DNA from: Microvelia longipes
Lineage: Eukaryota; Arthropoda; Insecta; Hemiptera; Veliidae
Assembly: GCA_018340805.1 (NCBI GenBank)
Contig: JACMZG010001913.1
Location: forward strand, 8,323,286-8,387,285
Length of the DNA stretch: 64,000 nt
Direction of reading: 5' to 3'
This document shows, piece by piece, positions 1,827-56,335 of this stretch (its first letter is position 1; every line of letters starts with the position of its first letter). A model generated the notes under the pieces. It was given only the letters and a program-made list of their open reading frames with translations, was not told where the DNA came from and searched no databases. Position numbers and translations under genes: made by a program.

Positions 1827-2013
1827 TGTTCATTAAAAGGCTTAAATCTTACTTATTTAATTCTGACAAATAATCGACATGAAATTTAAAGAGTTTACGT
1901 GTGTAAAGGATAAGTATTAAAAGCGTTGACTGATTCAAATTTATTATTATAAACCTCTGTTTCTATAAGTTTTTTTTAAGTTCATTAAACCCATTTATAT
2001 AAAAAGTAAGAAA

Positions 2014-2055
2014 TACCTACTTAATGGAGAGACGTCCTTCTCCATTAAGTAGGTA
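2014..2055. repeat. Perfect 17-bp hairpin
   Basis: Positions 2014-2030 and 2039-2055 are exact reverse complements around an 8-base loop (gacgtcct). It could be a short foldback insertion or a transcribed hairpin. Nothing next to it indicates a function. Confidence 0.85.
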
Positions 2056-2214
2056 GAAGGATAAAAGAAATAATATCCCAATAATACATAGTGCCAAATA
2101 TTATATACTTTTTCCCTAAATAATATTTTTTCCCTTATATAAATTTCCCTATATACTTTCTGCTTAGAAAAATAGAAAAGCATTGAGTTTCAAATGAATG
2201 CCGTTAAATATATA

Positions 2215-2480
<266 letters not shown>

Positions 2481-2935
2481 GTGTAAAATTGTTTTCTCTT
2501 AATAATAAATTTATTGCCTAACATTTTTCAAATAGGCTTTTTTACGAACTATATAAAAATTTAATTGTTACAAATAAAATCTAATAAAAGGTTTACTACT
2601 ATTGTATACTAATAATAATAAAGCTTAAATAAACATCGTTATAATTGTACTAGCATAGCAATAGACATCTGACATTAAAAATAAAATAGAACGAACTAAT
2701 TGCTTCAATAATAAAGTATCGAAATGATATTTTTAAAAAAAATTGTTAAGTAAAGATAAAAAAAAGACAAAATGAATTTTATGAGACTTGTTGCATAATA
2801 AATGATAATTATACAAATTGTAGATGTAACAATATCTATTGCCAGTGCTTCCTTCATACTTGTTAAAAACATCTTATATTGAAAACATACATAAAAAACA
2901 ATGACGATTTATCCAAGAATTTTTAATAGATAGTA
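2481..2935. other. AT-rich, nothing recognised
   Basis: No reading frame, RNA or repeat boundary could be supported in this interval. Confidence 0.5.
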
Positions 2936-3027
2936 ATTCAAATTAATCGGTTAAGAGGTACTTAAGAACCTTTCGTCACAACTTCGGACTCGCTTCGCTT
3001 GCTCTTAGACAGTGAATACTATTATAA

Positions 3028-3090
3028 CCCCAGCGGTCACCCATTCATGCACTGACCTCGCTCGATGATGCTTAACTTAATGATGCAACA
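3028..3090 (-). repeat. 5S rRNA-derived block (internal control region)
   Basis: The minus strand reads aagttaagcatcatcgagc, gaggtcagtgcatgaatggg and tgaccgctggg. These line up with the 5S rRNA box A, intermediate element and box C of animal 5S genes (GAAGTTAAGCAGCGTCGAGC, CGGTCAGTACTTGGATGGG, TGACCGCTTGGG from general knowledge of the family). The 5' third and the 3' end of 5S are absent or unrecognisable, so this is a 5S-related repeat, not a 5S gene. Confidence 0.8.
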
Positions 3091-3110
3091 ATACATGTAG
3101 ATTAACTTCC

Positions 3111-3220
3111 CTTATTATAAGAAACTTATAATAAGTATACTTATTATAAGAAACTTATAATAAGTATACTTATATAATAAGTATACTTATTATAAGAAAC
3201 TTATAATAAGTATACTTATT
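3111..3220. repeat. Palindromic about 30-bp minisatellite inside the composite repeat
   Basis: Near-perfect tandem units built on cttattataagaaacttata and ataagtatacttat. In other copies the corresponding place has a single aagaaacttggtgtacttatt-like stretch, so the array arose inside this copy. Confidence 0.85.
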
Positions 3221-3290
3221 TGTTACTTGAAGGATTACACTTGAACTAAAATTTCAACTCAATTAGATTATTTATTTATTAGATTAGAAA

Positions 3291-3870
3291 AATCTGGTAC
3301 GGGGTACCTCAAAACTTTTCCTCATTATATCGGATTCGCTAAGCTCATCCTCTCAGTTTCAGAATTCTTCAGAATATACAAGTCTTCAGTCTCGCTTCGC
3401 TCGTCCTCAGATAGTAAAAAGATTCGTTTTATTCCCAGCGGTCACTCAACCAGACACTGACCATACTCGATGGTGCTTAACTTTTATAATCCACCAAAAA
3501 TCATGGATAAACTTATTTACAAAATATACAAAAATATTAAAACTAAACTTAGCACACTTATTTATTACGTCAAGGGATACACTTGTACCTTTTTAAATTT
3601 TATTTGGATTATTTTCCGATTATTTAATTGAATTTTACAATTCGATAAAAATTGGCATATATGTTAATCTTATACATGGATAATGCGTGCAAAACTTCAA
3701 TAGGATCGCATCATATTTCCGCGTTTTATGATTTTTCAAAAATTTTGCTGAGTCATTATTGCGAGATAATGAGGTCATAACAAAATTATTTTTCGAGTAG
3801 CAGAAATGACAGTGATGGACTGATTTTTGTACAAAGTTTCAACTCTCAAGCATAAATACTAGAGCTACGA
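3291..3870 (-). repeat. Composite 5S-related repeat, near full length
   Basis: The minus-strand head is at about 3870 (tgtctgttatcatcgtagct-like), followed by the cattat/gacgtcat segment (about 3750), a 5S-like block (3433-3515) and the tail ending ggtaccccgtaccagattt at 3291. It abuts the previous copy in the same orientation. An ATATAC microsatellite begins at the head. Confidence 0.85.
3433..3515 (-). repeat. 5S rRNA-derived block
   Basis: The minus strand reads ttggtggattataaaagtta, agcaccatcgagtatggtca and gtgtctggttgagtgaccgctggg in broken pieces. It is the same 5S-like stretch as at 3028-3090, with more upstream sequence (tccatgattttt) kept and box C slightly mutated. Confidence 0.75.
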
Positions 3871-4400: not shown

Positions 4401-5595
4401 TTGCTTCTTCAACTTGCGGTAAATACAACCTTTATATACTTTATACTTACTTAATCTTTATACGTTTAAACTTTCAACTAACAATACTCATATATTGCTA
4501 AAAAAAATTTTTGAAAGTGAAACTTTATTTTTATTTGAAATCTATGGGTATAGATAACTTGCTATAGTGAAGACGAAAAAGGTCATGAAAGGTCACGAGG
4601 GATGGTCCCATCTTGGGAGTATGTCTGGGGAACCTTCACCTTCAGAGACACTCGTCTGCTTTCCTCACGAATGTGAAAGTTCTATCAGAGACATCTACTG
4701 CATCGTGATCATAAAGAAAACATTGAAATGCAATTGAAAACGAGACTTGATACAACAATGCTTTCGCGCGTCTTTTGCTTTCATAATGGGAGATATAGTA
4801 CTTAGAGATGACAGGAAGAAGTTTTAATAAATGAGGCTTATCAGAAGATATAGGTCTTCTGGTGGTGACAACACCTGCACGTGGGATCTTGAATAGGACA
4901 TATTCAGAAATAAGAACAAAGTAATTAAGGATATGAAGTAATGTATATTGTCAGATTAATTATACTAAAAGACAGATAATATTACAGGGGAACATAATTG
5001 GTCGGATCCCTGAAGGGAATCCAACTTAGAGTTGGAGTTATATGGTTACTGTAACTATAAGTTACCTAAGTATAAACGGACAGATGCGATTATACCTTTA
5101 GATGGGAAGTTATCACCCAGGAGGAGTCAGTCATCGTGCCCAAAAAACCTAATGGCCGAACTTCTCCCACTACAATCCCTACTTAGACATTAAGTCTACC
5201 CTATCTCTCATAGCGGGGTTTGTAACCAGCATGTAAGAATGCTGACACAATCAAAAATGAAATAAGAAGTTTTGAAGTAACTAAATGATATGATTTTAAC
5301 ATTCTGATCAATAATTGGGAGTATGAGCTTATCTAAAGCTCAATTAAGGCTAAATTTAATGTTAATGGTCAACTAAGGAACTAGTTTAAATGGGCATAAG
5401 GAAGAAAGCTAAACTACTATAAGAATAACTGTCCCATACAAGGTTCAAGGGTTTCGCGAGGAGACATTCTGTTCATATTGGGCCCACAGAATTGCTGCTG
5501 ATAGACCAAGTACACAAAATTCTTTCTCTCTTTCGGTTTAACAAGACGGAAACTGCCGTTGATAATATAAATAACTTCTCTTAGACAATTGCATC
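4401..5595. other. No recognised feature
   Basis: Moderately AT-rich unique-looking sequence. The short reading frames have no recognisable similarity. No repeat boundary was seen. Confidence 0.5.
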
Positions 5596-14467: not shown

Positions 14468-14565
14468 CGTGAGTTTAGGAATTCATTATTTAGTTATTCA
14501 TCTTGGAACTGTTCCATCATTCGACATTCGTCATCATTAATGGCTCGACATAATGTCATGTCCCA

Positions 14566-14606
14566 CTCTGTTTCGTTACGTCTAACTCACCAGGGCGCCG
14601 ACAGAG
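14566..14606 (-). ncRNA. Hammerhead motif, core mutated
   Basis: Same layout as 14899-14939 but with CUGGUGA in place of CUGAUGA, which should abolish cleavage. Stems II and III are kept. Confidence 0.55.
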
Positions 14607-14898
14607 CCTGAACTCATGAGCCTAATGAGTACTCATGGGCCTGTATCATTCTGTTGAATGATACAGAGCCTGAACTCACTCTGACCTTTAATTAATTCCG
14701 AAGAATATAATGTGAAGTACTTACCAGAGACGAGCGGTGCTCTCTTACCGCCATCATGCATGGCAAGCAAAACATACATCATTTGATACTACCGAGTTTT
14801 GCAAAACATAAATAGTTGACACAATATAATTGTGCGAGCGACACCTAGAAAATGTGACAAGCAAAAAATGCATGATGTAACTGCAAAATGAGTTCAGG

Positions 14899-14939
14899 CT
14901 CTGTCGGCGCCCTGATGAGTTAGACATAACGAAACAGAG
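14899..14939 (+). ncRNA. Hammerhead ribozyme motif, core intact
   Basis: CUCUG (14899-14903) pairs with CAGAG (14935-14939) as stem III. UC (14904-14905) completes the GUC cleavage triplet. GGCGCC (14906-14911) is the stem I sequence, CUGAUGA is at 14912-14918, GUUA/UAAC (14919-14922, 14927-14930) is stem II with loop GACA, and GAAA is at 14931-14934. All invariant core bases are present. Stem I has no loop, being a self-complementary hexamer, so it could pair only between two molecules or two adjacent units. Confidence 0.65.
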
Positions 14940-15065
14940 TGGGACATGACATTATGTCGAGCCATCAATGATGACGAATGTCGAATGATGCAACAGTTCC
15001 CAGATGTAGCATTGCATTTTGCTTGTTACATTTCCTAGGTGTCTCTCGCACAATTACATTAGTCA

Positions 15066-15671
15066 ACAAGTTATTTCATAAATTAACTAGTTATTTCATG
15101 GAAGAACTAATATTCCATAAAATATCGGATAATATTTCATCAAATCACGTTTTACCGTCAGATTCGGAAATTTACTAAAATCGTGTTTCTTTATAAAATT
15201 TTGTATAAAATGCTTTTACTGTTTTTGGTATCATATCTAGTTGTAATAGATAGCTTAAAATTAAAGAATAACATTTATTTATAACGTTACGTAAGGAAAC
15301 ATTCAATGTAACAATACATAATCAATACAACTCAAGTTAACAGTGCACGCCAACTAATTCCAATTCCCAACAAAGGAAATTGGTCTTTTCACGTAAATTG
15401 CATGAATCTTATTTTACGTTTTTTTGGAAGAAGAATAGAAATATAGAAATTAAACAAAGAAAAAAGTGTTTAAATCAGGTATATTCATAAGAAAAACATA
15501 AAAAGGGTAACAGTAATATTGGTAGGAGGGAGAATTGGTGTTCGGAAACATTTCACAACGCAATGCTTCCAATTATAGAAATATTTGTGTAACTTATAAG
15601 AACAACATACAAAACTATCTACAACATTAAATAGTTTAGTTTTCATCCTAAATAATTTAGACATCTTTTTC
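15066..15671. other. No recognised feature
   Basis: AT-rich with no supported gene. Confidence 0.45.
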
Positions 15672-20856: not shown

Positions 20857-20937
20857 GGCCCGTATTCAAAGACATTTTCCTAACATTCTCCTTGTTCCTT
20901 AAGGAGAATGTTAGGAAAATGTCTTTGAATACGGACC
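20857..20937. mobile_element. Hairpin MITE-like element
   Basis: Positions 20861-20893 and 20901-20933 are exact reverse complements (33 bp) around a 7-base loop (gttcctt). Pairing continues outward with a mismatch (ggcc/ggacc), and TTA flanks both ends. The start ggcccgtattcaaagacatt looks like MITE termini seen in many animal genomes. The fold also resembles a microRNA precursor. Confidence 0.8.
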
Positions 20938-29225: not shown

Positions 29226-29394
29226 ATTTTTTATATATATTCTACAGTTTTTACTGTTCAGTTTTGTTTGTATTTTTATTTCAATTTTTGGTTTATTTAT
29301 TTGGTTTTATTTATTCATTATCATTCTACTTTACTAAAATGTGATTTAAAATTGTCTGCCAATACTAATGAAGTGATAAAAGTATATAATGATT

Positions 29395-29890
29395 AACACA
29401 ATATAATTGTGAGAGAGACACCTAGAAAATGTAACAAGCAAAATGCAATGCTACATCTGGGAACTGTTCCATCATTCCACATTCATCATCATGGATGGCT
29501 CAACATAATTTCATGTCCCACTCAGTTCCGTTACGTCTAACTCATCAATTATATTGTGTCAACTATTCATGTTTTGCAAAAACTCGGTAGTATCAAGTGG
29601 TAAGAGAGCACCGCTCGTCTCTGGTAAATACTTCACATTATATTCTTCGGAATTAATTGAAGGTCGGAGTGAGTTCGGGCTCTGTCGGCGCCCTGATGAG
29701 TTAGACGTAACGAAACAGAGTGGGACATGACATTATGTCGAGCCATCAATGATGACGAATGTCGAATGATGGAACAGTTCCCAGATTAGCATTGCATTTT
29801 GCTTGTTACATTTCCTAGGTGTCTCTCGCACAATCATATTGTGTCAAATATTCATGTTTTGCAAAAGACGGTAGTATCAAATTATATATG
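29395..29890. mobile_element. Hammerhead-bearing element (family HH), foldback plus overlong unit
   Basis: 29395-29547 is a minus-strand partial unit. From 29547 the plus-strand unit runs through the motif and then repeats its own start: the attatattgtgtcaac block at 29547 returns at 29833, a period of 286 bases. Relative to the 56-kb copy it lacks about 28 bases (tgatatatgttttgcc region), giving the same underlying unit of about 314. Being longer than one unit with permuted ends is the layout of retrozyme copies made from circular or multimeric RNA. Confidence 0.8.
29680..29720 (+). ncRNA. Hammerhead ribozyme motif, core intact
   Basis: CUCUG (29680-29684) with CAGAG (29716-29720) forms stem III. 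GUC ends at 29686. GGCGCC is at 29687-29692, CUGAUGA at 29693-29699, GUUA/UAAC (29700-29703, 29708-29711) forms stem II with loop GACG, and GAAA is at 29712-29715. It differs from the 14.9-kb copy by one base, in the stem II loop, which preserves the fold. Confidence 0.7.
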
Positions 29891-29992
29891 TATATAATGA
29901 TGTTTAGAAACAGGCTACATTTAAATAAAGACAGAAAATCGTTAGAGATAGAATAGGATAACCACTGAGCAGAGGTTATAACTTTTAATTAC

Positions 29993-36165: not shown

Positions 36166-36510
36166 TTATTCAGACAGATATAAAGGAGCAAGTTTTCTCA
36201 CTGGTCGTTTGTAAAGACCGCGAGAAGTTCTAACAGACACGATACGTACAACGCCGTCATCTTGGTTTGGAAAAACCTCCTCAATTCTACCCAAAGGAAA
36301 AGTCAAAGGAGAAGCTCCGTCTTCTTTCACCCAAACAAGTTGACCAACTTGTAGATTTTCAGCGTTGTTAGAGAACCATTTACATTTAGGTTGCAAGGTT
36401 AACAGATACTCTGAAGACCAACGTTGCCAAAAGTGTTGGAACATTTGAGACACTTTCTGCCATCGAGATAATCTATTCAGCGGCAATTCTGTTAAGTCAA
36501 GCTCCGGCAC
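36166..36510 (-). pseudogene. BEL copy A, C-terminal DUF5641-like domain
   Basis: Encodes RLSRWQKVSQMFQHFWQRWS, then a KWFS, VGQLVWVKED, LGRIEEVFP, VRIV.VRTSRG and RPVRKLAPL series. This is the DUF5641 domain that ends BEL/Pao polyproteins after integrase and probably takes part in DNA binding. The terminal TAA is at 36166-36168. A one-base frame change near 36530 separates it from the integrase in this copy; copy B reads through that point. Confidence 0.85.
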
Positions 36511-36530
36511 CGCTACTAATGGTGCACCTA

Positions 36531-37549
36531 TTAAAAAGTGACCGGAGTCAAAGCCTCCAACTCATTAGGGCTTGGAGATAAATCACAAAGCGGTCTAGAG
36601 TTGAGAACTGCTTCAACACGGGCAAGCATAGTAACAAACTCTTCAATTGTTAGTATTTTGTCACCAACTACCTTGTGAAGATGACATTTAGTATTTTTAA
36701 TGTTGCTTTCCCATATACCACCCATAAAGGGTGCTCTAGGGCAGATGAAATGAAAGTTGATTTCTAGTTTAGCTAATTCTGCAGTAATGTAGCGTTGGTT
36801 GTCTTCCTGTTTCAAAAAACTGACAATTTCTGTAAGCTCTCTAGCGGCTCCACGGAAGTTAGTAGCTTGATCGCTGTATATATCAGATGGGAGACCACGG
36901 CGGGCGACAAAACGAGTAAGAGTAGCAATAAATGCTTCCGAAGAAAGACTAGTCAACGCCTCTAAATGAACAGCCTTAGTGACCATACAAATAAAAAGGG
37001 CAAAATATCCTTTATAAGAGCTGGCGTTTCGCGATAACTCTCTTTAATAAGAAAAGGTCCAGCTAAATCTACACCACAGCGGGAAAAAGGACGCGCAACA
37101 GTCACTCTACTGGAAGGTAAATCAGCCATCATTGGAGATGGTGTTGTAATGCTAAATCTAGAACAAGTCAAACACATTCTTATGCGTTGACGTATAACTG
37201 AGTGCGCTGAAAGAATCCAAAACTGTTTTTGAAGCAAGGCTCTTAATGTTCGTGGTCCAGCATGCAAATAGAATTTGTGATAGTGGTCTATCAGAACATT
37301 CGTAAGATGGCAGTGTTTAGGAAGCAGCAAAGGATGTTGAGCACTGTAAGGTAAGTTTGCGTGTTTCAGACGACCTCCAACTCGAAGAAGTCCTTGTTCG
37401 TCGATAAATGGAGTAAGCGGTAGTAAAGAAGATGATTTAAGCTGTTTAGAATGTATCAAAAGTATATCTTTTGCAAAGTAAACATTCTGAACTTGTCTGA
37501 CCAAATTAAAGTAAGGCCTTTCGGAGTTCGGAAACAGAAATAGGCTCAT
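36531..37549 (-). pseudogene. BEL copy A, integrase
   Basis: Read in two frames. The first (37549-36962) has the H-H-C-C zinc region (HYHKFYLHAG then MCLTCSR) and the first catalytic Asp in GVDLAGPF. The second (36986-36531) has the second Asp in YSDQATNFRGAARE and the Glu in GGIWESNIKN, completing D,D,E. A frameshift at about 36965-37020 divides them. The family inserts the cDNA into chromosomes. All catalytic residues are visible, so decay is recent or artefactual. Confidence 0.85.
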
Positions 37550-38400
37550 TTGAAGGTGGAACTACTCCTTGAGAACTCAAACGGCACCAAGAAATGAAAC
37601 GAGACACATAAACTTGAATTTTCTGTATTTTAAGAAAAGAAGAGAACTGTGACATCCATTCAATGTCTTTCTCTAAATCTGCTTCGGTTAAAAGGACTTT
37701 AGCCGTCGTAGGTTTGAGTTCAGGTAGTTCCTCAGTGGGAATAGGAGACCATACAGGTACAGGCCAAGCCGAACGAGATTGGTGTATCCATTTTGGTCCT
37801 TGGAACCACTCAGAACATTGAGATAAACTAAAAGCATCTAAACCCCTAGATACGACATCAGCAATATTTAGATCGGTAGAAATATGTCTCCAATCGTTTA
37901 ACTGAGTGTGCTCTAAAATTGAATTAACCCGGTTACCCACATACATTTTTAATGTGGGGGCGGTTTATTTAACCAAGAAAGTACAATACTTGAGTCAGTG
38001 TGGAGATATAATCTATCAATGACCAATTTAGAAAAAACAGGTTGTAAAGAACCTATAGAACGAGCTAGTAAGAGAGCACCAGCTAGTCTAAACGAGGAAT
38101 AGTAGAGCCTTTTAGCGGGGCAACTTTAGATTTTGCCAATAAGAGAGATATATGCGGCGGTGAATTACAACGTGAGACTCTTAAATAAATAACACAACCG
38201 TACCCACGTTCGGAAGCGTCAGAAAATCCTAATACTTGAATAGAAGTGTAAGTTTGAGGTAGTATCCATCGCGGGAGGCGTATGTTTGAGAGACAAGATA
38301 GATCAGAAGTGAGCGAATGCCATTTTTGATACAGGTCTTTAGTGAGATGATCGTCCCATGCTAACCCTGCCGTCCAAAGAAGCTGCATAAAACATTTCAA
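37506..38400 (-). pseudogene. BEL copy A, RNase H / Pao A17 region
   Basis: The first piece (38400-38083) has VLGFSDASERGYGCVIY with the first acidic residue and the start of the KSKVAPLKGSTIPRL block. The second (37946-37506) has NIADVVSRGLD, where Asp is the last catalytic position. Between them, at about 37940-38095, frame is lost by single-base indels (aatgtgggggcgg and agctagtctaaac, which differ from copy B). The region removes the RNA strand during reverse transcription. Confidence 0.8.
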
Positions 38401-39237
38401 GGCAAAGGTAACGGGATAAAAATCCTAACGGATCGTAGATACTTGCGATAATAGATAAAACTGATCTTTTCGTAGGCGGTTCACTACGAGTAGGTAAGTC
38501 GATATTATAGGACAAAACATCAGTTGTAGGTTCCCAGCGTATCCCCAATATTTTACAGGTCTGATCTTCGGATATAATAAGCGGACTGGAAGAAGATGCG
38601 TTGACAAGACATAGAAATTCTTTTGAATTACTCTTCCATTTGCTCAATTCGAAGCGCCGGCCCTGAGCAACTGGATTAACTCATCAGCTAGACTAATTAA
38701 ACTAGAAATAGACTGGGTTCCTGTCGTAATATCATCCATGAAGGTGTCTTCTAATAACACACGTGCAGCGGCGGGAAAAACATCTCCTTCATCCTTAGCA
38801 AGCTGTATTAAGACCCTCTGAGCATGCCAAGGGGAAGGGGTTAGTCCATATGTGACAGTATTTAACCTATACTCTTGCAAAGGTTCATCTGGATTATCTC
38901 GATAAACAATATGAGTGAATTTGCGGTCATCATCATGTAAAAGAATTTGGCGAAACATTTTTATAATGTCGCAACAGAAACAAATTTATGGAGTCGAAAA
39001 TTCATAATAATATCCGGAACTTGTTTCTGGAGTTTCGGTCCAGGATATAACGTCGTTTAAAGAACGCTGAGATGCTTTCGCGCTTCCATCAAAAACTACT
39101 CGTACAGGCGTTGTTTGTGAATGCGGGTTGTGAACACAAAAATAAGGTAGAACATATTCAGCCTTTTCTAAAGTTTTTTCCATATGACCCAAATTTTCAT
39201 ATTCATGAAGAAAAGATGAACAATTTTCTTTGAGCAC
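38339..39237 (-). pseudogene. BEL copy A, reverse transcriptase
   Basis: Three pieces in shifted frames: 39237-38986 with TPVRVVFDGSAKA, where the Asp of the first catalytic motif lies; 38958-38644 with MFRQILLHDDDRKFTHIVYR, YGLTPSPWHAQRVL and the catalytic box as TFMDDI; and 38647-38339 with KILGIRW and SIYDPLGFLS, characteristic of BEL/Pao. The box is FMDD where most relatives have YVDD or YMDD. Confidence 0.85.
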
Positions 39238-40217
39238 GTTATTGCGGCGAAAACGTTGTTCAAGTGATAAAACCGTTTAACCGCAACTGACCTAGACTCA
39301 GGAAAATTTAAATCGGTATTTTTGAATGGAAGGCGAACTATGTATCGACCGTCCTTATTCCTTTCGTGAGTAGAAACAAAATGTTTTTCGCATAGTTCGT
39401 CCTCAGGATTAAGAATTGGCGTTATAGGAACTTCTTCAGTTTCCCAGAAGCGAGTTATAGATTCTGATAATGGATCAACAGCGGTACAGAGTGATACTAA
39501 ACCTCTTGGAGGCTCAGCGTCTGATGATATAGGCCCCATTACAACATCACCAAAAATAGTATGAATAACACTTTCCTTAAGATGAAAATTGGGCTGTGAA
39601 GTCAATACTAAAAGGAATAAATCAGCCCCTATGAGAAAGTCAATGGGTCCTGGAGTTCCAAACTCAGGGTCCGCTAAATTAAATTCCGAATAGTTTTTAA
39701 TAAGCGAATTAGCAAGTGCAGTTGGCGGCGTAGGCCCTAAGATTTCTGGAAGAGCTACTGCTACTGTGGTTACTCGAGGCTCAGACGTATAAAGCGGTTT
39801 AATTTCACACTTAACTAATCCGGTCCCTTCAACAACTGGTACCTCACCAAGTCCAGTAAAGCGTAAGCGTCGGGGAGTAACATCTAAACCTAGTTTAGCA
39901 ACACAACTCTCAGTTATACAGCTGCGAAGAGAAGCTGGATCAAGAAGAGCTCTGCAAGTAGAAAAAGTGCCATCTTTACACTTTAATGAAATTAATGCAG
40001 TGCCGAGAACTACTGTAGAGTTTATTTGTTTAGTTTGAGTAGATAAGTTTGTCTCTGAGTCCAAGTTATCAACAGTATTAGAGCACAATGACTTATTTTG
40101 ATCCTGGCGTGTTGGAATTTTAACGTCGATATGAATCAATGTATGATGGCGAGCCTGACAACGGAAAATGATGATGTAGAACGGCATTTCTTCACAGGGT
40201 GAGTTAAAGAAAGACAA
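39168..40217 (-). pseudogene. BEL copy A, aspartic protease (DUF1758-like) and linker
   Basis: A continuous frame of 349 codons. The active-site region reads RALLDPASLRSCIT, where relatives usually have LLDSGS; the Asp is kept but the following residues are PAS. A flap-like RLRFTGLGEVPVVEGTG, then PIDFLIGADLF and FGDVVMGPIS follow as in other BEL proteases. The frame runs on to the start of RT. It overlaps the preceding gag frame (40136-40217), reflecting a frameshift at about 40190. Confidence 0.8.
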
Positions 40218-41586
40218 TTCTCACATGCCTTTAAAGCTCTTACTTTATTTACCCTTTGCTCAGGTGACATTTGTTGAAAGCTATAACATTTATACAAGGG
40301 ATGAGCAGCCTGGCAAAGAGGACACGGTGAATAAAACGAATTGTAAGATGATGTATTTGCGTATTGTGGTGTATTAGGATAAATATTCGAGACATGCGGT
40401 GCGGATGAAGAAGCGTTAGTATACTGAGAAGCGGTGGCCATCATAGGCGTGCATTGCGACGTCGATGGGAAGGCTGGCGGATATTGCAGCGCGGCGGATG
40501 AATAATAAGAACCGTAATGCGGATGAAAAGCGGGTGCGGATTGCATAGGAGAAGCGGTTGAGTGCGTAGTGTCTTGCGGTGCGGTTGTTTGAATAGCTGT
40601 TTGTTGATCAGTAGTTGAAAAAGACAGTAAACATTTTTTAGAATTTTTAGATTTAGAAGTGTCAGAAGATGTACCCTTCGAATGAGAAGAAGTCTCTGCT
40701 GCTGTTATCTCTAGAACCTTAAGCTGTTTCTTGACAAACTTAACTAAGCTATCGTACTTAGGAAAATCAGTACCAACATTTTCTCTTTCAAAGGCTTTTA
40801 CAGTAACAGGGTCCAAACGACGAAGTGCCAAATTTAAAACTATTAAATCAGATAAGTCCTCGACCCTCATGTTAGTCAACCCCACGACAGCGTCGTTGAA
40901 TTTAGTGAGAAATGTTTGTAAACTTTTAGCAGTCTGGTGTAATGGTGGTTTTTCAAAAGAAAAAAGTTCATCAAAAAAGTGAGCAGCTAGTAACCTCTTG
41001 TCTTCAAAACGCTCTTCAAGAGCATTCCAAGCTGAGTTAAAATGTTCTGCGACAATGGGAAACTACTAATAATTTTTAGTGCTTCGGGTTCTAAATAAGA
41101 ACGTAAATAATAATATTTACGAGCGTTGTCTAAAGATTTGTCGTTAATAATTACAGCCTTAAACAAATCTCTAAACTCGGGCCAATCTTTAATTTTACCT
41201 GAAAAATGTTTAAAATTTAAACGAGGAAGTTGATTTTGATTGCCTTCAGTAGTAGAACACCGATGCATTATAGGCTCGTTAGTAGGAACATTTAATTTTT
41301 CATAAGCAATTAAAATTGCTCCATACAAATCATCGAAAGCGGTGAGTGACTGAAAATCAGGTTCTACCTGATCATCTATTTCTACTTGCAGAGTAGAAAT
41401 TTCATCAATATAAGAATAATAATGAGCACGGGTCTCTGCTAAAGTTTGATAGCGTATAATAAATTGATTTTTAGCGGGTTCATTGTCTGGAAGTTGAGCA
41501 ATAAGATCGTAAATAAGTTGAACGCGTCTAAAATAATCCTCTCTCTTCTTTTCTAAAACTCTCAAACGGGCACGCTTCGCTTCCAT
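40136..41586 (-). pseudogene. BEL copy A, gag (DUF1759-like) with two zinc knuckles
   Basis: Starts ATG at 41586 (MEAKRARLRVLEKKREDYF, coiled-coil-like). The capsid-like part has RLNFKHFSGKIKDWPEFRDL and YYYLRSYLEPEAL, hallmark DUF1759 motifs. A frameshift at about 41046 (missing base versus copy B) separates it from the 40885-40136 frame, which has a Ser/Tyr-rich linker and two knuckles: CPLC-H-C (CX2CX3HX4C) and CENC-H-C (CX2CX4HX4C). Gag packages the element RNA. Confidence 0.85.
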
Positions 41587-42380
41587 GACAGTAAAATAAT
41601 ATTACCAGAATAAAATAGAACAAAAAATAAAAATTAAACTTCGAAGGATTAATAAAGTTGATTCATAAATAATAAAAAAATTAAATCCACAATCTTGAAG
41701 GAAAAAAATGTAAAAAATAATTTTATGAAGCTGATAACTAGGCTAGATAAGCGTGAAATTCGCAATAGAAAGAAGTTTTTTGCAAGAAAATCGAAACAGT
41801 AGATGAGAAGATACGCGCGAACACACATACGCGGGGGAGGTGAGAGCCTGCGGGGGGGGAAGTATACAGAGAGAGTATGGAACAAGTATAGTGAGTGTAG
41901 ACGCGGGGTCCTCGTGCCACACCACTCTAACGTCCAAGCACAGAATCCTACCTTCCAGCCCTACTATAAAAACTACTCTTACCTTCACACTAACTCTATT
42001 ACAAACTTTATAATAATTATTATAATTGAAGCTATACGTAAATATTATTGATTTTTTAATTTAAAATAAAATATAATCATGAATTTTTATAAAAAAACGA
42101 AATCTACAAAATCATTAAAGGAATGAATCTTGAATAAATAAATTAAAATATGCATCTAATAAAATTGATTAAAGAAATATTAATTAAATTTAATAAATCT
42201 GAATTTAAAGAAATTACTTTAAATTTAAAACCAATAAGAATTTAATTTTATATTTAATATTATTAATTTAAATCTATTAAGTTTCTGTTTTTAAAAGAGG
42301 TTTTAAAAAAAACAAAATTTAGAGTCCACAATAATTTAAAAAAAAATGCCTGTGGCTCGAAGGCCAAAAAATGATATGGT
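41587..42380 (-). other. BEL copy A, 5' leader
   Basis: Roughly 790 bases between the 5' LTR and the gag ATG, very AT-rich (42000-42300), with a GC-richer patch at 41800-41960. A tRNA primer-binding site was not recognised. Confidence 0.6.
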
Positions 42381-42678: not shown

Positions 42679-43566
42679 TGATGTTCTAATTGAGTTGATT
42701 CGTGATGAATGATCTAATTTGATTGATGTTGAATGATCGTGATGAATGATCTAATTGAGTGAATTCGTGATGAATGATCTAATTGAGTTGAATTCGTGAT
42801 GAATGATCTAATTGAGTTGAATTGTGATGAATGATCTAATTGAGTTGAATTCGTGATGAATGATTCTAAGAGTTGAATTTGTTATGAATGATCTAATTGA
42901 GATTGAATTCTGATGAATGATCTGAATTGAGTTGAATTTGTTATTGTTGATGAATGAACTAATTGAGTTGAATTTTGTTATGAATGATCTAATTGAGTTG
43001 AATTCGTGATGATGATCTAATTGAGTTGAATTTGTTATGAATGATCTTAAATGAGTTGATTCGTGATGAATGATCTAATTGAGTTGAATTTGTTATGAAT
43101 GATTAATTGAGTTGAATCGTGATGAATGATCTAATGAGTTGAATTTGTTATGAATGATCTAATTGAGTTGATTTCGTGATTGAATGATCTTGAATTGAGT
43201 TGAATTCAGTTGAATTGAATGATCTAATTGAGGTTGATTTCGTGATGAATGATCTAATTGAGTTGAATTTGTTATGAATGATCTAATTGAGTTGAATTCG
43301 TGATGAATGATCTAATTGAGTTGAATTTGTTATGAATGTTGAGTTGAAATTCGTGATGGATTGAGTTGATTTTCGTGATGAATGATCTTAATTGAGTTGA
43401 ATTCGTGATCTAATTGAGTTGAATTTGATTGAATGAATCTAATGAGTTGAAATTCGTGATGAATGATCTAATTGAGTTGAAATTTGTGATGAATGATCTA
43501 ATTGAGTTGAATTCGTTTATGAATGAATCAATTGAGTTGAAATTGTTATGAATGATCTAATTGAGT
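42679..43566 (+). repeat. 29-bp satellite with 58-bp dimeric order
   Basis: Units ending attcgtgat and atttgttat alternate over long parts (clear at 43240-43340), giving a 58-bp higher-order period. The block runs into the assembly gap. Confidence 0.9.
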
Positions 43567-44566
43567 NNNNNNNNNNNNNNNNNNNNNNNNNNNNNNNNNN
43601 NNNNNNNNNNNNNNNNNNNNNNNNNNNNNNNNNNNNNNNNNNNNNNNNNNNNNNNNNNNNNNNNNNNNNNNNNNNNNNNNNNNNNNNNNNNNNNNNNNNN
43701 NNNNNNNNNNNNNNNNNNNNNNNNNNNNNNNNNNNNNNNNNNNNNNNNNNNNNNNNNNNNNNNNNNNNNNNNNNNNNNNNNNNNNNNNNNNNNNNNNNNN
43801 NNNNNNNNNNNNNNNNNNNNNNNNNNNNNNNNNNNNNNNNNNNNNNNNNNNNNNNNNNNNNNNNNNNNNNNNNNNNNNNNNNNNNNNNNNNNNNNNNNNN
43901 NNNNNNNNNNNNNNNNNNNNNNNNNNNNNNNNNNNNNNNNNNNNNNNNNNNNNNNNNNNNNNNNNNNNNNNNNNNNNNNNNNNNNNNNNNNNNNNNNNNN
44001 NNNNNNNNNNNNNNNNNNNNNNNNNNNNNNNNNNNNNNNNNNNNNNNNNNNNNNNNNNNNNNNNNNNNNNNNNNNNNNNNNNNNNNNNNNNNNNNNNNNN
44101 NNNNNNNNNNNNNNNNNNNNNNNNNNNNNNNNNNNNNNNNNNNNNNNNNNNNNNNNNNNNNNNNNNNNNNNNNNNNNNNNNNNNNNNNNNNNNNNNNNNN
44201 NNNNNNNNNNNNNNNNNNNNNNNNNNNNNNNNNNNNNNNNNNNNNNNNNNNNNNNNNNNNNNNNNNNNNNNNNNNNNNNNNNNNNNNNNNNNNNNNNNNN
44301 NNNNNNNNNNNNNNNNNNNNNNNNNNNNNNNNNNNNNNNNNNNNNNNNNNNNNNNNNNNNNNNNNNNNNNNNNNNNNNNNNNNNNNNNNNNNNNNNNNNN
44401 NNNNNNNNNNNNNNNNNNNNNNNNNNNNNNNNNNNNNNNNNNNNNNNNNNNNNNNNNNNNNNNNNNNNNNNNNNNNNNNNNNNNNNNNNNNNNNNNNNNN
44501 NNNNNNNNNNNNNNNNNNNNNNNNNNNNNNNNNNNNNNNNNNNNNNNNNNNNNNNNNNNNNNNNNN
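43567..44566. other. Assembly gap (exactly 1000 N)
   Basis: The round length suggests a placeholder gap. Frames crossing it are meaningless. Confidence 1.
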
Positions 44567-46670: not shown

Positions 46671-47520
46671 CAGATATAAAGGAGCAAGTTTTCTCACTGG
46701 TCGTTTGTAAAGACCGCGAGAAGTTCTAACAGACAGACACGATACGTACAACGCCGTCATCTTGGTTTGGAAAAACCTCCTCAATTCTACCCAAAGGAAA
46801 AGTCAAAGGAGAAGCTCCGTCTTCTTTCACCCAACAAGTTGACCAACTTGTAGATTTTCAGCGTTGTTAGAGAACCATTTAGCCTTTTGTTGCAAGGTTA
46901 ACAGATACTCTGAAGACCAACGTTGCCAAAAGTGTTGGAACATTTGAGACACTTTCTGCCATCGAGATAATCTATTCAGCGGCAATTCTGTTAAGTCAAG
47001 CTCCGGTACCGCTACTAATGGTGCACCTATTAAAAAGTGACCAGGAGTCAAAGCCTCCAACTCATTAGGGCTTGGAGATAAATCACAAAGCGGTCTAGAG
47101 TTGAGAACTGCTTCAACACGGGCAAGCATAGTAACAAACTCTTCAATTGTTAGTATTTTGTCACCAACTACCTTGTGAAGATGACATTTAGTATTTTTAA
47201 TGTTGCTTTCCCATATACCACCCATAAAGGGTGCTCTAGGGCAGATGAAATGAAAGTTGATTTCTAGTTTAGCTAATTCTGCAGTAATGTAGCGTTGGTT
47301 GTCTTCCTGTTTCAAAAAACTGACAATTTCTGTGAGCTCTCTAGCGGCTCCACGGAAGTTAGTAGCTTGATCGCTGTATATATCAGATGGGAGACCACGG
47401 CGGGCGGCAAAACGAGTAAGAGTAGCAATAAATGCTTCCGAGAAAGACTAGTCAACGCCTCTAAATGAACAGCCTTAGTGACCATACAAATAAAAAGGGC
47501 AAAATATCCTTTATAAGAGC
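46671..47520 (-). pseudogene. BEL copy B, integrase catalytic core and DUF5641-like end
   Basis: A 162-codon frame (47315-46827) joins GGIWESNIKN, VLNSRPL and the LTPGHFLIGAPL motif directly to RLSRWQKVSQMFQHF, showing that integrase and C-terminal domain are one protein. A base lost in cacccaacaagttg (about 46832) breaks the last part. The second catalytic Asp segment (about 47340-47450) is out of frame with it. Confidence 0.8.
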
Positions 47521-47768
47521 TGGCGTTTTCGGCGATAACTCTCTTTAATAAGAAAAGGTCCAGCTAAATCTACACCACAGCGGGAAAAAGGACGCGCAAC
47601 AGTCACTCTACTGGAAGGTAAATCAGCCATCATTGGAGATGGTGTTGTGATGCTAAATCTAGAACAAGTCAAACACATTCTTATGCGTTGACGTATAACT
47701 GAGTGCGCTGAAAGAATCCAAAACTGTTTTTGAAGCAAGGCTCTTAATGTTCGTGGTCCAGCATGCAA
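47511..47768 (-). pseudogene. BEL copy B, integrase zinc-binding region and first Asp
   Basis: HAGPRTLRALLQKQFWILSA, MCLTCSRFS and GVDLAGPFLIKES are readable. It is separated from the preceding frame by a base missing at about 47783 (gatatggtct versus gatagtggtct in A) and ends in a shift near 47525. Confidence 0.8.
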
Positions 47769-48901
47769 ATAGAATTTGTGATATGGTCTATCAGAACATT
47801 CGTAAGATGGCAGTGTTTAGGAAGCAGCAAAGGATGTTGAGCACTGTAAGGTAAGTTTGCGTGTTTCAGACGACCTCCAACTCGAAGAAGTCCTTGTTCG
47901 TCGATAAATGGAGTAAGCGGTAGTAAAGAAGATGATTTAAGCTGTTTAGAATGTATCAAAAGTATATCTTTTGCAAAGTAAACATTCTGAACTTGTCTGA
48001 CCAAATTAAGTAAGGCTTTTCGGAGTTCGGAAACAGAAATAGGCTCATTTGAAGGTGGAACTACTCCTTGAGAACTCAAACGGCACCAAGAAATGAAACG
48101 AGACACATAAACTTGAATTTTCTGTATTTTAAGAAAAGAAGAGAACTGTGACATCCATTCAATGTCTTTCTCTAAATCTGCTTCGGTTAAAAGGACTTTA
48201 GCCGTCGTAGGTTTGAGTTCAGGTAGTTCCTCAGTGGGAATAGGAGACCATACAGGTACAGGCCAAGCCGAACGAGATTGGTGTATCCATTTTGGTCCTT
48301 GGAACCACTCAGAACATTGAGATAAACTAAAAGCATCTAAACCCCTAGATACGACATCAGCAATATTTAGATCGGTAGAAATATGTCTCCAATCGTTTAA
48401 CTGAGTGTGCTCTAAAATTGAATTAACCCGGTTACCCACATACATTTTTAATGTGTGGGGCGGTTTATTTAACCAAGAAAGTACAATACTTGAGTCAGTG
48501 TGGAGATATAATCTATCAATGACCAATTTAGAAAAAACAGGTTGTAAAGAACCTATAGAACGAGCTAGTAAGAGAGCACCAGCTAGTTCTAAACGAGGAA
48601 TAGTAGAGCCTTTTAGCGGGGCAACTTTAGATTTTGCCAAATAGAGAGATATATGCGGCGGTGAATTACAACGTGAGACTCTTAAATAAATAACACAACC
48701 GTACCCACGTTCGGAAGCGTCAGAAAATCCTAATACTTGAATAGAAGTGTAAGTTTGAGGTAGTATCCATCGCGGGAGGCGTATGTTTGAGAGACAAGAT
48801 AGATCAGAAGTGAGCGAATGCCATTTTTGATACAGGTCTTTAGTGAGATGATCGTCCCATGCTAACCCTGCCGTCCAAAGAAGCTGCATAAAACATTTCA
48901 A
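47744..48901 (-). pseudogene. BEL copy B, RNase H region through integrase start (unbroken 385 codons)
   Basis: One continuous frame: GFSDASERGYGCVIY, KSKVAPLKGSTIPRLELAGA, YLHTDSSIVLSWLNKPPHT and NIADVVSRGLD give the full RNase H acidic set D, E, D, D. It continues into GLLRVGGRLKHANLP and HPLLLPKHCHLTNVLID, the lead-in to integrase. The corresponding region of copy A has at least three frame breaks. Confidence 0.85.
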
Positions 48902-49680
48902 GGCAAAGGTAACGGGATAAAAATCCTAACGGATCGTAGATACTTGCGATAATAGATAAAACTGATCTTTTCGTAGGCGGTTCACTACGAGTAGGTAAGT
49001 CGATATTATAGGACAAAACATCAGTTGTAGGTTCCCAGCGTATCCCAATTTTACAGGTCTGATCTTCGGATATAATAAGCGGACTGGAAGAAGATGCGTT
49101 GACAAGACATAGAAATTCTTTTGAATTACTCTTCCATTTGCTCAATTCGAAGCCGCCGCCCTGAGCAACTGGATTAACTCATCAGCTAGACTAATTAAAC
49201 TAGAAATAGACTGGGTTCCTGTCGTAATATCATCCATGAAGGTGTCTTCTAATAACACACGTGCAGCGGCGGGAAAAATCTCCTTCATCCTTAGCAAGCT
49301 GTATTAAGACCCTCTGAGCATGCCAAGGGGAAGGGGTTAGTCCAATGTGACAGTATTTAACCTATACTCTTGCAAAGGTTCATCTGGATTATCTCGATAA
49401 ACAATATGAGTGAATTTGCGGTCATCATCATGTAAAAGAATTTGGCGAACATTTTTATATGTCGCAACAGAAAAACAATTTATGGAGTCGAAAATTCATA
49501 ATAATATCCGGAACTTGTTTCTGGAGTTTCGGTCCAGGAATATAACGTGTCGTTTAAAGAACGCTGAGATGCTTTCGCGCTTCCATCAAAAACTACTCGT
49601 ACAGGCGTTGTTTGTGAATGCGGGTTGTGAACACAAATAAGGTAGAACATATTCAGCCTTTTCTAAAGTTTTTTCCATAT
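48840..49680 (-). pseudogene. BEL copy B, reverse transcriptase (multiply broken)
   Basis: The last third (49145-48840) reads KIGIRWEPTTDVL and SIYDPLGFLS with one codon missing relative to A. Upstream the same RT sequence as A is present at nucleotide level, including the FMDD box near 49235, but single-base losses (for example gggaaaaatctcc and gtccaatgtgac) break every frame. Confidence 0.75.
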
Positions 49681-50711
49681 GACCCAAGTTTTCATATTCA
49701 TGAAGAAAGATGAACAATTTTCTTTGAGCACGTTATTGCGGCGAAAACGTTGTTCAAGTGATAAATACCGTTTAACCGCAACTGACCTAGACTCAGGAAA
49801 ATTTAAATCGGTATTTTTGAATGGAAGGCGAACTATGTATCGACCGTTCTTATTCCTTTCGTGAGTAGAAACAAAATGTTTTTCGCATAGTTCGTCCTCA
49901 GGATTAAGAATTGGCGTTATAGGAACTTCTTCAGTTTCCCAGAAGCGAGTTATAGATTCTGATAATGGATCAACAGCGGTACAGAGTGATACTAAACCTC
50001 TTGGAGGCTCAGCGTCTGATGATATAGGCCCATTACAACATCACCAAAATAGTATGATAACACTTTCCTTAAGATGAAATTGGGCTGTGAAGTCAATACT
50101 AAAAGGAATAAATCAGCCCTATGAGAAAGTCAATGGGTCCTGGAGTTCCAAACTCAGGGTCGCTAAATTAAATTCCGAATAGTTTTTAATAAGCGAATTA
50201 GCAAGTGCAGTTGGCGGCGTAGGCCCTAAGATTTCTGGAAGAGCTACTGCTACTGTGGTTACTCGAGGCTCAGACGTATAAAGCGGTTTAATTTCACACT
50301 TAACTAATCCGGTCCCTTCAACAACTGGTACTCATTAAGTCCAGTAAAGCGTAAGCGTCGGGGAGTAACATCTAAACCTAGTTTAGCAACACAACTCTCA
50401 GTTATACAGCTGCGAAGAGAAGCTGGATCAAGAAGAGCTCTGCAAGTAGAAAAAGTGCCATCTTTACACTTTAATGAAATTAATGCAGTGCCCGAGAACT
50501 ACTGTAGAGTTTATTTGTTTAGTTTGAGTAGATAAGTTTGTCTCTGAGTCCAAGTTATCAACAGTATTAGAGCACAATGACTTATTTGATCCTGGCGTGT
50601 TGGAATTTTAACGTCGATATGAATCAATGTATGATGGCGAGCCTGACAACGGAAACATGATGATGTAGAACGGATTTCTTCACAGGGTGAGTTAAAGAAG
50701 ACAATTCTCAC
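49681..50711 (-). pseudogene. BEL copy B, protease region (multiply broken)
   Basis: Nucleotide counterpart of copy A 39168-40217, with at least six one-base indels so that no long frame remains. The active-site stretch (about 50420-50440) encodes the same LLDPAS pattern. Confidence 0.75.
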
Positions 50712-52057
50712 ATGCCTTTAAAGCTCTTACTTTATTTACCTTTGCTCAGGTGACATTTGTTGAAAGCTATAACATTTATACAAGGATGAGCAGCCTGGCA
50801 AAGAGGACACGGTGAATAAAACGAATTGTAAGATGATGTATTTGCGTATTGTGGTGTATTAGGATAAATATTCGAGACATGCGGTGCGGATGAAGAAGCG
50901 TTAGTATACTGAGAAGCGGTGGCCATCATAGGCGTGCATTGCGACGTCGATGGGAAGGCTGGCGGATATTGCAGCGCGGCGGATGAATAATAAGAACCGT
51001 AATGCGGATGAAAAGCGGGTGCGGATTGCATAGGAGAAGCGGTTGAGTGCGTAGTGTCTTGCGGTGCGGTTGTTTGAATAGCTGTTTGTTGATTAGTAGT
51101 TGAAAAAGACAGTAAATTTTTTAGAATTTTAGATTTAGAAGTGTCGAAGATGTACCCTTCGAATGAGAAGAAGTCTCTGCTGCTGTTATCTCTAGAACCT
51201 TAAGCTGTTTCTTGACAAACTTAACTAAGCTATCGTACTTAGGAAAATCAGTACCAACATTTTCTCTTTCAAAGGCTTTTACAGTAACAGGGTCCAAACG
51301 ACGAAGTGCCAAATTTAAAACTATTAAATCAGATAAGTCCTCGACCCTCATGTTAGTCAACCCCACGACAGCGTCGTTGAATTTAGTGAGAATGTTTGTA
51401 AACTTTTAGCAGTCTGGTGTATGGTGGTTTTTCAAAGAAAAAAGTTCATCAAAAAAGTGAGCAGCTAGTAACTCTTGTCTTCAAAACGCTCTTCAAGAGC
51501 ATTCCAAGCTGAGTTAAAATGTTCTGCTGACAATGGGAAACTACTAATAAATTTTAGTGCTTCGGGTTCTAAATAAGAACGTAAATAATAATATTTACGA
51601 GCGTTGTCTAAAGATTTGTCGTTAATAATTACAGCCTTAAACAAATCTCTAAACTCGGGCCAATCTTTATTTTACCTGAAAAATGTTTAAAATTTAAACG
51701 AGGAAGTTGATTTTGATTGCCTTCAGTAGTAGAACACCGATGCATTATAGGCTCGTTAGTAGAACATTTAATTTTTCATAAGCAATTAAAATTGCTCCAT
51801 ACAAATCATCGAAAGCGGTGAGTGACTGAAAATCAGGTTCTACTGATCATTATTTCTACTTGCAGAGTAGAAATTTCATCAATATAAGAATAATAATGAG
51901 CACGGGTCTCTGCTAAAGTTTGATAGCGTATAATAAATTGATTTTTAGCGGGTTCATTGTCTGGAAGTTGAGCAATAAGATCGTAAATAAGTTGAACGCG
52001 TCTAAATAATCCTCTCTTCTTTTCTAAAACTCTCAAACGGGCACGCTTCGCTTCCAT
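50712..52057 (-). pseudogene. BEL copy B, gag (multiply broken)
   Basis: Readable pieces: 52057-51833 (MEAKRARLRVLEKKRG, QLPDNEPAKNQFIIRYQ), 51366-51121 and 51031-50732 (the linker and CPLCQAAH of the first knuckle). Frameshifts occur at homopolymers where copy A is often in frame. Confidence 0.8.
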
Positions 52058-56004: not shown

Positions 56005-56335
56005 AACGGTTCCCAGATGTAGCATTTCATTTTGATTGTTACATTTCTAGGTGTCACTCGCACAATTATATTGTATCAACTATTCATGTTTTGCAAAACT
56101 TGATAGTATCAAATGATATATGTTTTGCCTCCATGCATGTCGGCGGTAAGAGAGCACCGCTCGTCTTAAGTAAATACTTCACATTATATTCTTTGGAATT
56201 AATTAAAGGTCTGAGTGAGTTCAGGCTCTGTCGGCGCCCTAATGAGTCAGACGTAACGAAACAGTGTGGGACATGACATTATGTCGAGCCATCAATGATG
56301 ACGAATGTGGAATGATAGGACATTTCCCAGATGAA
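56005..56335 (+). mobile_element. Hammerhead-bearing element (family HH), single plus-strand copy
   Basis: Contains the whole unit: gcacaattatattgta, gatatatgttttgcc, gagcaccgctcgtc, gaattaattaaaggtc, the motif, gtcgagccatcaatgatgac. The cccagatg block occurs at both 56012 and 56326, a distance of 314, so the copy is slightly more than one unit and begins at a different point from the 29-kb copy. Confidence 0.8.
56226..56266 (+). ncRNA. Hammerhead motif, decayed
   Basis: GUC, GGCGCC and GAAA are kept, but the core reads CUAAUGA, stem II has one mismatch (GUCA/UAAC) and stem III has lost pairs. Expected to be inactive. Confidence 0.5.

Follow-up and report, generated by a model that had tools for sequence, protein, structure and literature searches.

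The window, by which we mean the whole 64,000-nucleotide stretch of Microvelia longipes DNA that was analyzed, contains three insertions of a high-copy element of about 314 nt, which carries a hammerhead ribozyme in type III order whose stem I, GGCGCC, is a palindrome without a loop. Assignment of the element to the retrozymes is well supported, and we consider it very probable that these are retrozymes associated with a Penelope-like element (PLE). Our best explanation, held with moderate confidence, is a PLE-mobilized retrozyme family in which the type III hammerhead would act as a double hammerhead joined through stem I.

Beyond the window, we examined 200 kb of adjoining DNA (20 stretches, including 11.9 kb of N; L159-L176 below are stretch labels) and searched the genome (664.6 Mb in 1470 contigs) for exact matches to the pattern GTC-N6-CTGATGA-N12-GAAAC, in which stem I is left free. 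Thirty-six insertions were mapped, three from the window and the rest from L159-L176 and from 25 non-overlapping genome loci chosen for an intact ribozyme. Positions within the element are given on a ring of 314 nt, derived from tandem copies and one full-turn copy, with ring 1 as the first base after the cleavage site.

A type III hammerhead with a loopless stem I

The three insertions in the window comprise the following features.

14491-14498 and 15088-15095: alternative 8-bp duplication TAGTTATT of insertion 2
14492..14498: probable left target duplication AGTTATT of insertion 2, with the right copy at 15069-15075
14499..14866, minus strand: minus arm of insertion 2, ending at ring 101, with ribozyme core CUGGUGA and extra sequence at 14617-14662
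14889..15067, plus strand: plus arm of insertion 2, ring 298 to 163
14898..14940, plus strand: hammerhead ribozyme of insertion 2, with GGCGCC at 14906-14911; the double-hammerhead fold is the predicted minimum free energy (MFE) structure of its dimer
29382..29393: left target site duplication GTATATAATGAT of insertion 1, a 12-bp exact match to 29890-29901
29394..29547, minus strand: inverted arm of insertion 1, ring 8 to ~162
29546..29889, plus strand: direct arm of insertion 1, from ring 146 through the intact ribozyme to ring ~205, more than one full turn
29679..29721, plus strand: hammerhead ribozyme of insertion 1, type III order, cleavage predicted after C29686
29687..29692, plus strand: loopless palindromic stem I GGCGCC of insertion 1
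29890..29901: right target site duplication GTATATAATGAT of insertion 1
56005..56333, plus strand: insertion 3, one full ring turn, starting at ring ~87-92 and ending at ring 101

The boundaries that an earlier note on this DNA had given for insertion 1 (29395-29890) lie within one base of the inserted unit bracketed by the 12-bp duplication. A search for a target duplication around insertion 3 found none. The ribozymes of insertions 1 and 2 (29679-29721 and 14898-14940, plus strand) read GCUCUGUC up to the predicted cleavage site and GGCGCC CUGAUGA GUUA-GACR-UAAC GAAA CAGAGU beyond it, and both possess all hammerhead core bases (GUC / CUGANGA / GAAA), a 4-bp stem II, and a 7-bp stem III. The strands of stem III are outermost, leaving stem III open and stem I inside, which is the type III order. 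At 29680-29720 and 14899-14939, GUC, GGCGCC, CUGAUGA, GUUA-GACR-UAAC, GAAA, and CAGAG follow one another in the hammerhead order that the earlier note had reported, and the two copies differ over these ranges by a single base, in loop II, as stated there. The pattern CTGATGA..GAAACAGAG gave two matches, against none in 100 shuffles. Both ribozymes align with the whole of the Rfam type III model (RF00008, Hammerhead_3) but lack its loop I positions, scoring 37.7 and 37.0 bits (E 1.5e-6 and 2e-6 in a search restricted to the local stretch); the gathering score of 48.5 is not reached, and a search of the window at the gathering threshold returned no match. Two altered copies retain GGCGCC, namely, the decayed ribozyme of insertion 3 at 56226 (plus strand; core CUAAUGA, with changes in stems II and III) and an inverted copy at 14586-14606 (minus strand; core change).

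Cleavage site and core are separated by six bases that form a palindrome and leave no loop I for the usual contact between loops I and II. A monomer would require a loop of 0 nt to close this helix and is therefore unable to do so, and the earlier description of the layout, as a six-base stem I able to pair only with a second copy of itself, was correct.

Stem I may be completed by a second copy

We propose that two copies would share one continuous 6-bp GGCGCC/GGCGCC stem I, giving two complete cores, each with the cleavage strand of one copy and the catalytic strand of the other, and that multimeric transcripts would be cut after GUC by such double hammerheads. As stem I cannot be closed in the monomer, circularized unit-length RNA should resist re-cutting. 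The RNA circle, or an uncut multimer, would then be used by a Penelope-like endonuclease/reverse transcriptase that primes on both cut target strands; synthesis would begin near ring 160 on one strand and near ring 204 on the other, and the resulting cDNAs would meet head to head. This entire chain, from an obligate double hammerhead that cuts multimers and spares monomeric circles to the integration of ~314-nt retrozymes by a Penelope-like enzyme with the two target strands primed at different fixed sites, is advanced tentatively, as having slightly less than an even chance of being right. The dimer mechanism taken by itself, with cleavage as its presumed outcome, is given about an even chance.

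Predicted folds differ between the natural variants. For the variant with loop GACA (14898-14940), the MFE structure of the dimer (two 44-nt strands) is the stem-I-joined double hammerhead, at -30.5 kcal/mol and with stem I pair probabilities of 0.96-0.97, whereas for the commoner loop variant GACG a different duplex is better than the double hammerhead by 2.5 kcal/mol and the stem I pair probability is ~0.01. For seven natural variants of stem I, of which two are palindromic, the dimer fold had a stem I pair probability of 0.0. These folding energies ignore hammerhead tertiary structure and so neither prove nor exclude the double hammerhead. The suggestion in the earlier note that the ribozyme may act as a dimer stands in part: no standard route other than pairing with a second copy would complete stem I, and the GACA variant is predicted to fold in this manner, but the GACG variant is predicted to prefer another duplex.

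The second copy might be supplied only by neighboring units within one multimer, never between molecules. Direct tandems at ~314 nt do recur (in 5 of the 36 mapped insertions, a single arm runs across two ribozyme sites), and PMC6155905 and PMC6466107 present the dimers of PLEs and newts as tandem copies. However, 31 of the 36 mapped insertions are without an arm containing two ribozyme sites, and no insertion in the window carries two like-oriented ribozymes, so that from the window loci only pairing between molecules would be possible. A ribozyme confined to pairing within a multimer is a credible but somewhat doubtful account.

GGCGCC is the consensus of a family with thousands of copies

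With the six stem I positions left free, the core is matched exactly at 4,980 places in the genome, whereas the reversed pattern gives 0 matches. Among the first 100 matches listed, which follow contig order and are not a random sample, stem I is GGCGCC in 71, and most of the remaining hexamers are one change from it. Six additional ribozyme places were found in the 20 neighboring stretches, in five of them, and 7 of the 9 complete ribozymes of the window and these stretches have GGCGCC. The palindrome therefore characterizes the family as its consensus and is no peculiarity of two copies. Taken column by column, the consensus is a perfect hammerhead with all core bases, a self-complementary 6-bp stem I, a 4-bp stem II, and a 7-bp stem III, and this holds also when only the window and L159-L176, with ~10 copies, are considered.

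Individual copies, on the other hand, are conserved no better than their surroundings. In the window and L159-L176, changes affect 10 of 149 core positions (6.7%) versus 162 of 2,526 elsewhere in the unit (6.4%), with 2 changes at 55 stem I positions; the corresponding counts in a larger set, in which 6 of ~24 ribozymes are themselves pattern matches, are 18 of 349 and 653 of 12,372. Since the core is altered as often as the rest of the unit, copies appear to decay freely once inserted while the master sequence is preserved. The genome-wide conservation asked for in the earlier note is thus found in part: exact copies run into the thousands and the consensus is perfect, whereas single copies show no conservation above background. 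Within stem I of the 100 listed copies, three pairs are doubly changed, compared with 1.1 expected, and two of the three are compensated, a small sample.

Free decay is also what would be seen if the hammerhead were vestigial or barely active, with the same retrozyme and the same PLE mobilization but with loop I lost in a recent master and cleavage unneeded for reverse transcription. Ribozyme bases decaying at the rate of the rest of the unit, the integration of read-through RNA by the copies, and the lack of any monomer fold that yields stem I are all consistent with this, as are reports in PMC11167929 that PLE ribozyme mutants still inserted in vitro and that PLE RNA-seq reads neither began nor ended at the cleavage site. 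However, the consensus retains every core base, the self-complementarity of stem I, and stems II and III at full length, a 6-nt palindrome would arise by chance in 1 of 64 cases, and 6 bp is the length of the helix I stem in most type III ribozymes as described in PMC7936874. We consider a vestigial ribozyme unlikely.

Viral and prokaryote collections yielded 38 matches to a 16-mer and at least 120 matches to a loose descriptor; none of the matches listed combined a palindromic stem I with stems II and III, and stricter patterns gave 0 matches in the same collections. A phage blastn search returned 11 records, all of them short, weak matches.

The ~314-nt unit is retrozyme-like

The unit length of ~314 nt suggested earlier proved correct, as 314 nt separate the tandem ribozymes of stretch L179 and the same length is found in 56005-56333; insertion 1 itself, with a direct repeat spacing of 285 nt, is a copy ~29 nt short. 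The description as retrozyme-like likewise holds, given a small unit that is both dispersed and tandem, with unit-length and longer copies that cross an intact cleavage site. Tandem spacing of 312-316 nt and copies in the thousands place the family within the range of metazoan non-LTR retrozymes (150-450 nt, one hammerhead per unit, dispersed and tandem); the hammerhead is not the type I of that group, as its open stem III gives the type III order. Published animal retrozyme RNAs are notably self-paired, whereas self-pairing of the ~314-nt ring is ordinary (z -0.44 and +0.25). A tRNA-derived SINE was considered and rejected: A/B-box-like stretches can be picked out by eye, but cmscan gave no tRNA match in the three window insertions.

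Two arrays on contig C505 were also observed, one at 5932901-5935138 with at least 8 direct ribozyme copies 312-316 nt apart and one at 5653794-5657664 with 9 ribozyme copies in mixed orientation. These arrays are satellite-like amplifications of the ~314-nt unit.

Insertions bear a PLE-type footprint

Among the 36 mapped insertions, 18 consist of a minus arm followed by a plus arm, 2 more have an extra minus arm, 11 are single minus arms, 4 are single plus arms, and 1 is a direct pair. Head-to-head inverted composites thus number 20, all in minus-then-plus order with none in plus-then-minus order, and 16 insertions are without an inverted arm. Copies start and stop outside the ribozyme, cross the cleavage site, and span up to 747 nt (2.4 units), so that their template must have been a circle or a multimer; permuted, longer-than-unit copies that read through the cleavage site would arise from a circle and from a linear multimer alike.

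The outer 3' ends of these copies are concentrated at two sites ~43 nt apart, ring 153-168 (25 ends) and ring 199-206 (23 ends), which together hold 48 of the 56 ends. These windows were set after the ends had been viewed and the statistics depend on them, yet 48 of 56 ends within 24 of 314 positions is not chance even so. The 8 outer ends outside both clusters (ring 85-102 and 181-192) include ring 101 of insertions 2 and 3. Of the 20 inverted composites, 16 have both ends at these sites, and in 15 of them the arms end at different sites (at least 15 of 16 at even odds, 2.6e-4, windows chosen post hoc); the remaining one has both ends at the first site, no composite has both at the second, and in 4 an end lies outside. 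Flanks share words of at least 7 bases in 18 of the 36 insertions, versus 10% of 692 random flank pairs, and by hand count 11 of those 18 shared words, 7-14 bp long, lie within 4 bases of both edges. The duplication around insertion 1 belongs to this group.

Inner cDNA ends fall within ~30 nt of the ribozyme site in 5 of 14 cases (window and L159-L176, hand count), and their clustering at that site is suggestive only. The extra sequence at 14617-14662 in the minus arm of insertion 2, flanked by duplicated TGAGTTCAGGCTCTGT and starting ~1 base before the cleavage site, looks like a template switch at the ribozyme site.

A head-to-head inverted arm, a one-sided extension, and a short target duplication are together the footprint of PLE-type integration, which is well supported for these retrozyme insertions. 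In rotifer PLEs, an inverted pseudo-LTR (pLTR) is commonly found ahead of the direct copy and most inverted repeats are arranged head to head, with a 31-bp one-sided tail and duplications of 8-10 bp where present, although one rotifer family has mostly direct repeats only (PMC3846280). A lizard PLE studied in purified form acts on both target strands, cutting and extending each, and its reverse transcription has two adjacent internal start sites whose spacing equals the 30-40-bp tail (PMC11167929). The retrozyme and PLE insertions are therefore alike in the head-to-head repeat, the partial tandem, the one-sided tail, the short duplications, and the two start sites, which are spaced ~43 nt apart in the retrozyme and 30-40 in PLEs (PMC3846280, PMC11167929). 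The retrozyme unit, unlike a PLE, is too small to encode an enzyme. This footprint was missed by the earlier interpretation, which otherwise stands with respect to the retrozyme and the ribozyme layout.

A candidate source of the enzyme lies on the contig of the window, where stretch L174 holds at 1857-3567 what we observed to be a 5'-truncated Penelope-like element. Its 322-aa open reading frame (ORF) matches three proteins at 33-35% identity, all with PF26215 and one also with the GIY-YIG domain PF01541, although a Pfam search with the ORF as query gave no family at E up to 1; we take it to be PLE-type. Inverted arms at 1863-2183 and 3186-3523, an extension of ~32-38 nt on one side only, and a 12-bp duplication TTAAAGGTAAGG at 1857-1868 and 3556-3567 give this element a footprint matching that of the retrozyme insertions, and this footprint together with the relatives of the ORF places a PLE in the genome. 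From the footprint and the co-occurrence with the L174 PLE, we infer that a PLE moves the retrozyme, a role that had been proposed earlier for PLEs/Terminons (PMC7761336, PMC7229834).

By eye, each arm of the L174 element also has a hammerhead-like motif whose stem III would be a loopless GCGC palindrome. The motif at ~3426-3466 has an extra U before stem II, and Rfam gives nothing for it at E up to 1. A scan of the genome DNA examined here for a loopless palindromic stem III found none, and that scan missed the ~3426-3466 motif.

Inverted copies could instead come from self-priming (foldback) of a single cDNA, as proposed for rotifer PLEs, with no priming on both strands. Head-to-head repeats with junction palindromes are read in this way in PMC3846280, and the junction of the L159 insertion unites stretches with a common TGAGTT. 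Foldback, however, predicts neither defined start sites at both outer ends nor one end of each kind in 15 of the 16 classifiable composites, and we regard it as improbable. The one-of-each rule goes beyond what is stated in the relevant parts of PMC3846280 and PMC11167929, and it argues for priming on both strands over foldback. A foldback or MITE-like DNA transposon with an incidental hammerhead in its inverted repeats, which insertion 1 resembles in looking like a ~150-bp inverted-repeat element with a duplication, was rejected as extremely improbable because unequal arms with variable inner ends, spans of up to 747 nt, permuted starts, multi-unit copies, and simple single-arm copies misfit fixed terminal inverted repeats.

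Other elements in the window and its neighborhood

The window also holds two broken BEL/Pao retrotransposon copies on the minus strand (36166-41601 and 46827-51199; Pao peptidase PF05380, DUF1759, and DUF5641). The named best matches of a retroelement protein from the window are mostly from insects and other arthropods, at about 40% identity or less. A 1,000-base run of N at ~43565-44565, between the BEL/Pao copies, is likely an assembly gap or a masked stretch. At 20861-20933 there is a near-perfect long hairpin with CCTAACATT words and a sub-threshold match to MIR9563, and a repeat array in L174 (5080-5630) has similar words and inverted ends; the hairpin and the array are possibly members of a separate foldback element family.

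Implications and comparison with known systems

If the stem-I-joined double hammerhead is correct, a shared stem I would represent a novel means of tying self-cleavage to the presence of a second copy, by which multimers would be processed and the circle protected. The insertions provide a large natural record of retrozyme movement, and the pairing of different start sites on opposite arms is genomic evidence for PLE-type priming on both target strands, bearing on the enzyme that moves animal retrozymes and on the reason why PLEs end in inverted repeats. Cervera 2014 and Lunse 2017 reportedly describe minimal PLE/Terminon hammerheads that may cleave as dimers.

Metazoan non-LTR retrozymes are described as ~170-400 nt long, low in GC, tandemly repeated, and with a hammerhead in each unit (Cervera & de la Pena 2020, PMC7229834), and the unit reported here shares its small size, low GC, tandem repeats, and single hammerhead per unit with them. 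Their ribozymes, as described there, are of type I, stem III being closed and loop I touching loop II, in contrast to the type III order and loopless stem I found here. The LTR-bearing retrozymes described in PMC7936874 and PMC7761336 share the type III order, a 6-bp helix I, a 4-bp stem II, and a 4-nt loop, but their helix I is capped by a loop of 6-8 nt that contacts loop II, and they have LTRs and a primer binding site within ~600-1000 nt. The non-circular hammerhead permutations of PMC10085705 represent a rearrangement different from the present layout.

A survey of the open-licence full-text literature listed no natural hammerhead joined through stem I. A parallel exists with minimal PLE/Terminon hammerheads, for which dimer cleavage is considered possible (PMC7761336), and which have in common with the ribozyme described here a near-loopless helix that is completed only by a second copy, as well as a link to PLEs. 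The two are mirror cases, since helix III is reduced and helix I open in PLEs/Terminons, whereas helix I is reduced and helix III open in this family. The double hammerheads of newt, ASBVd, and Aedes are joined by a helix that is either palindromic or elongated (PMC6155905; PMC3088659, Fig. S8), and that helix is helix III, in contrast to helix I in the double hammerhead predicted here. The double hammerheads that we found in print (newt, ASBVd, Aedes, and PLE) thus share stem III according to these sources, and the sharing of stem I would be new.
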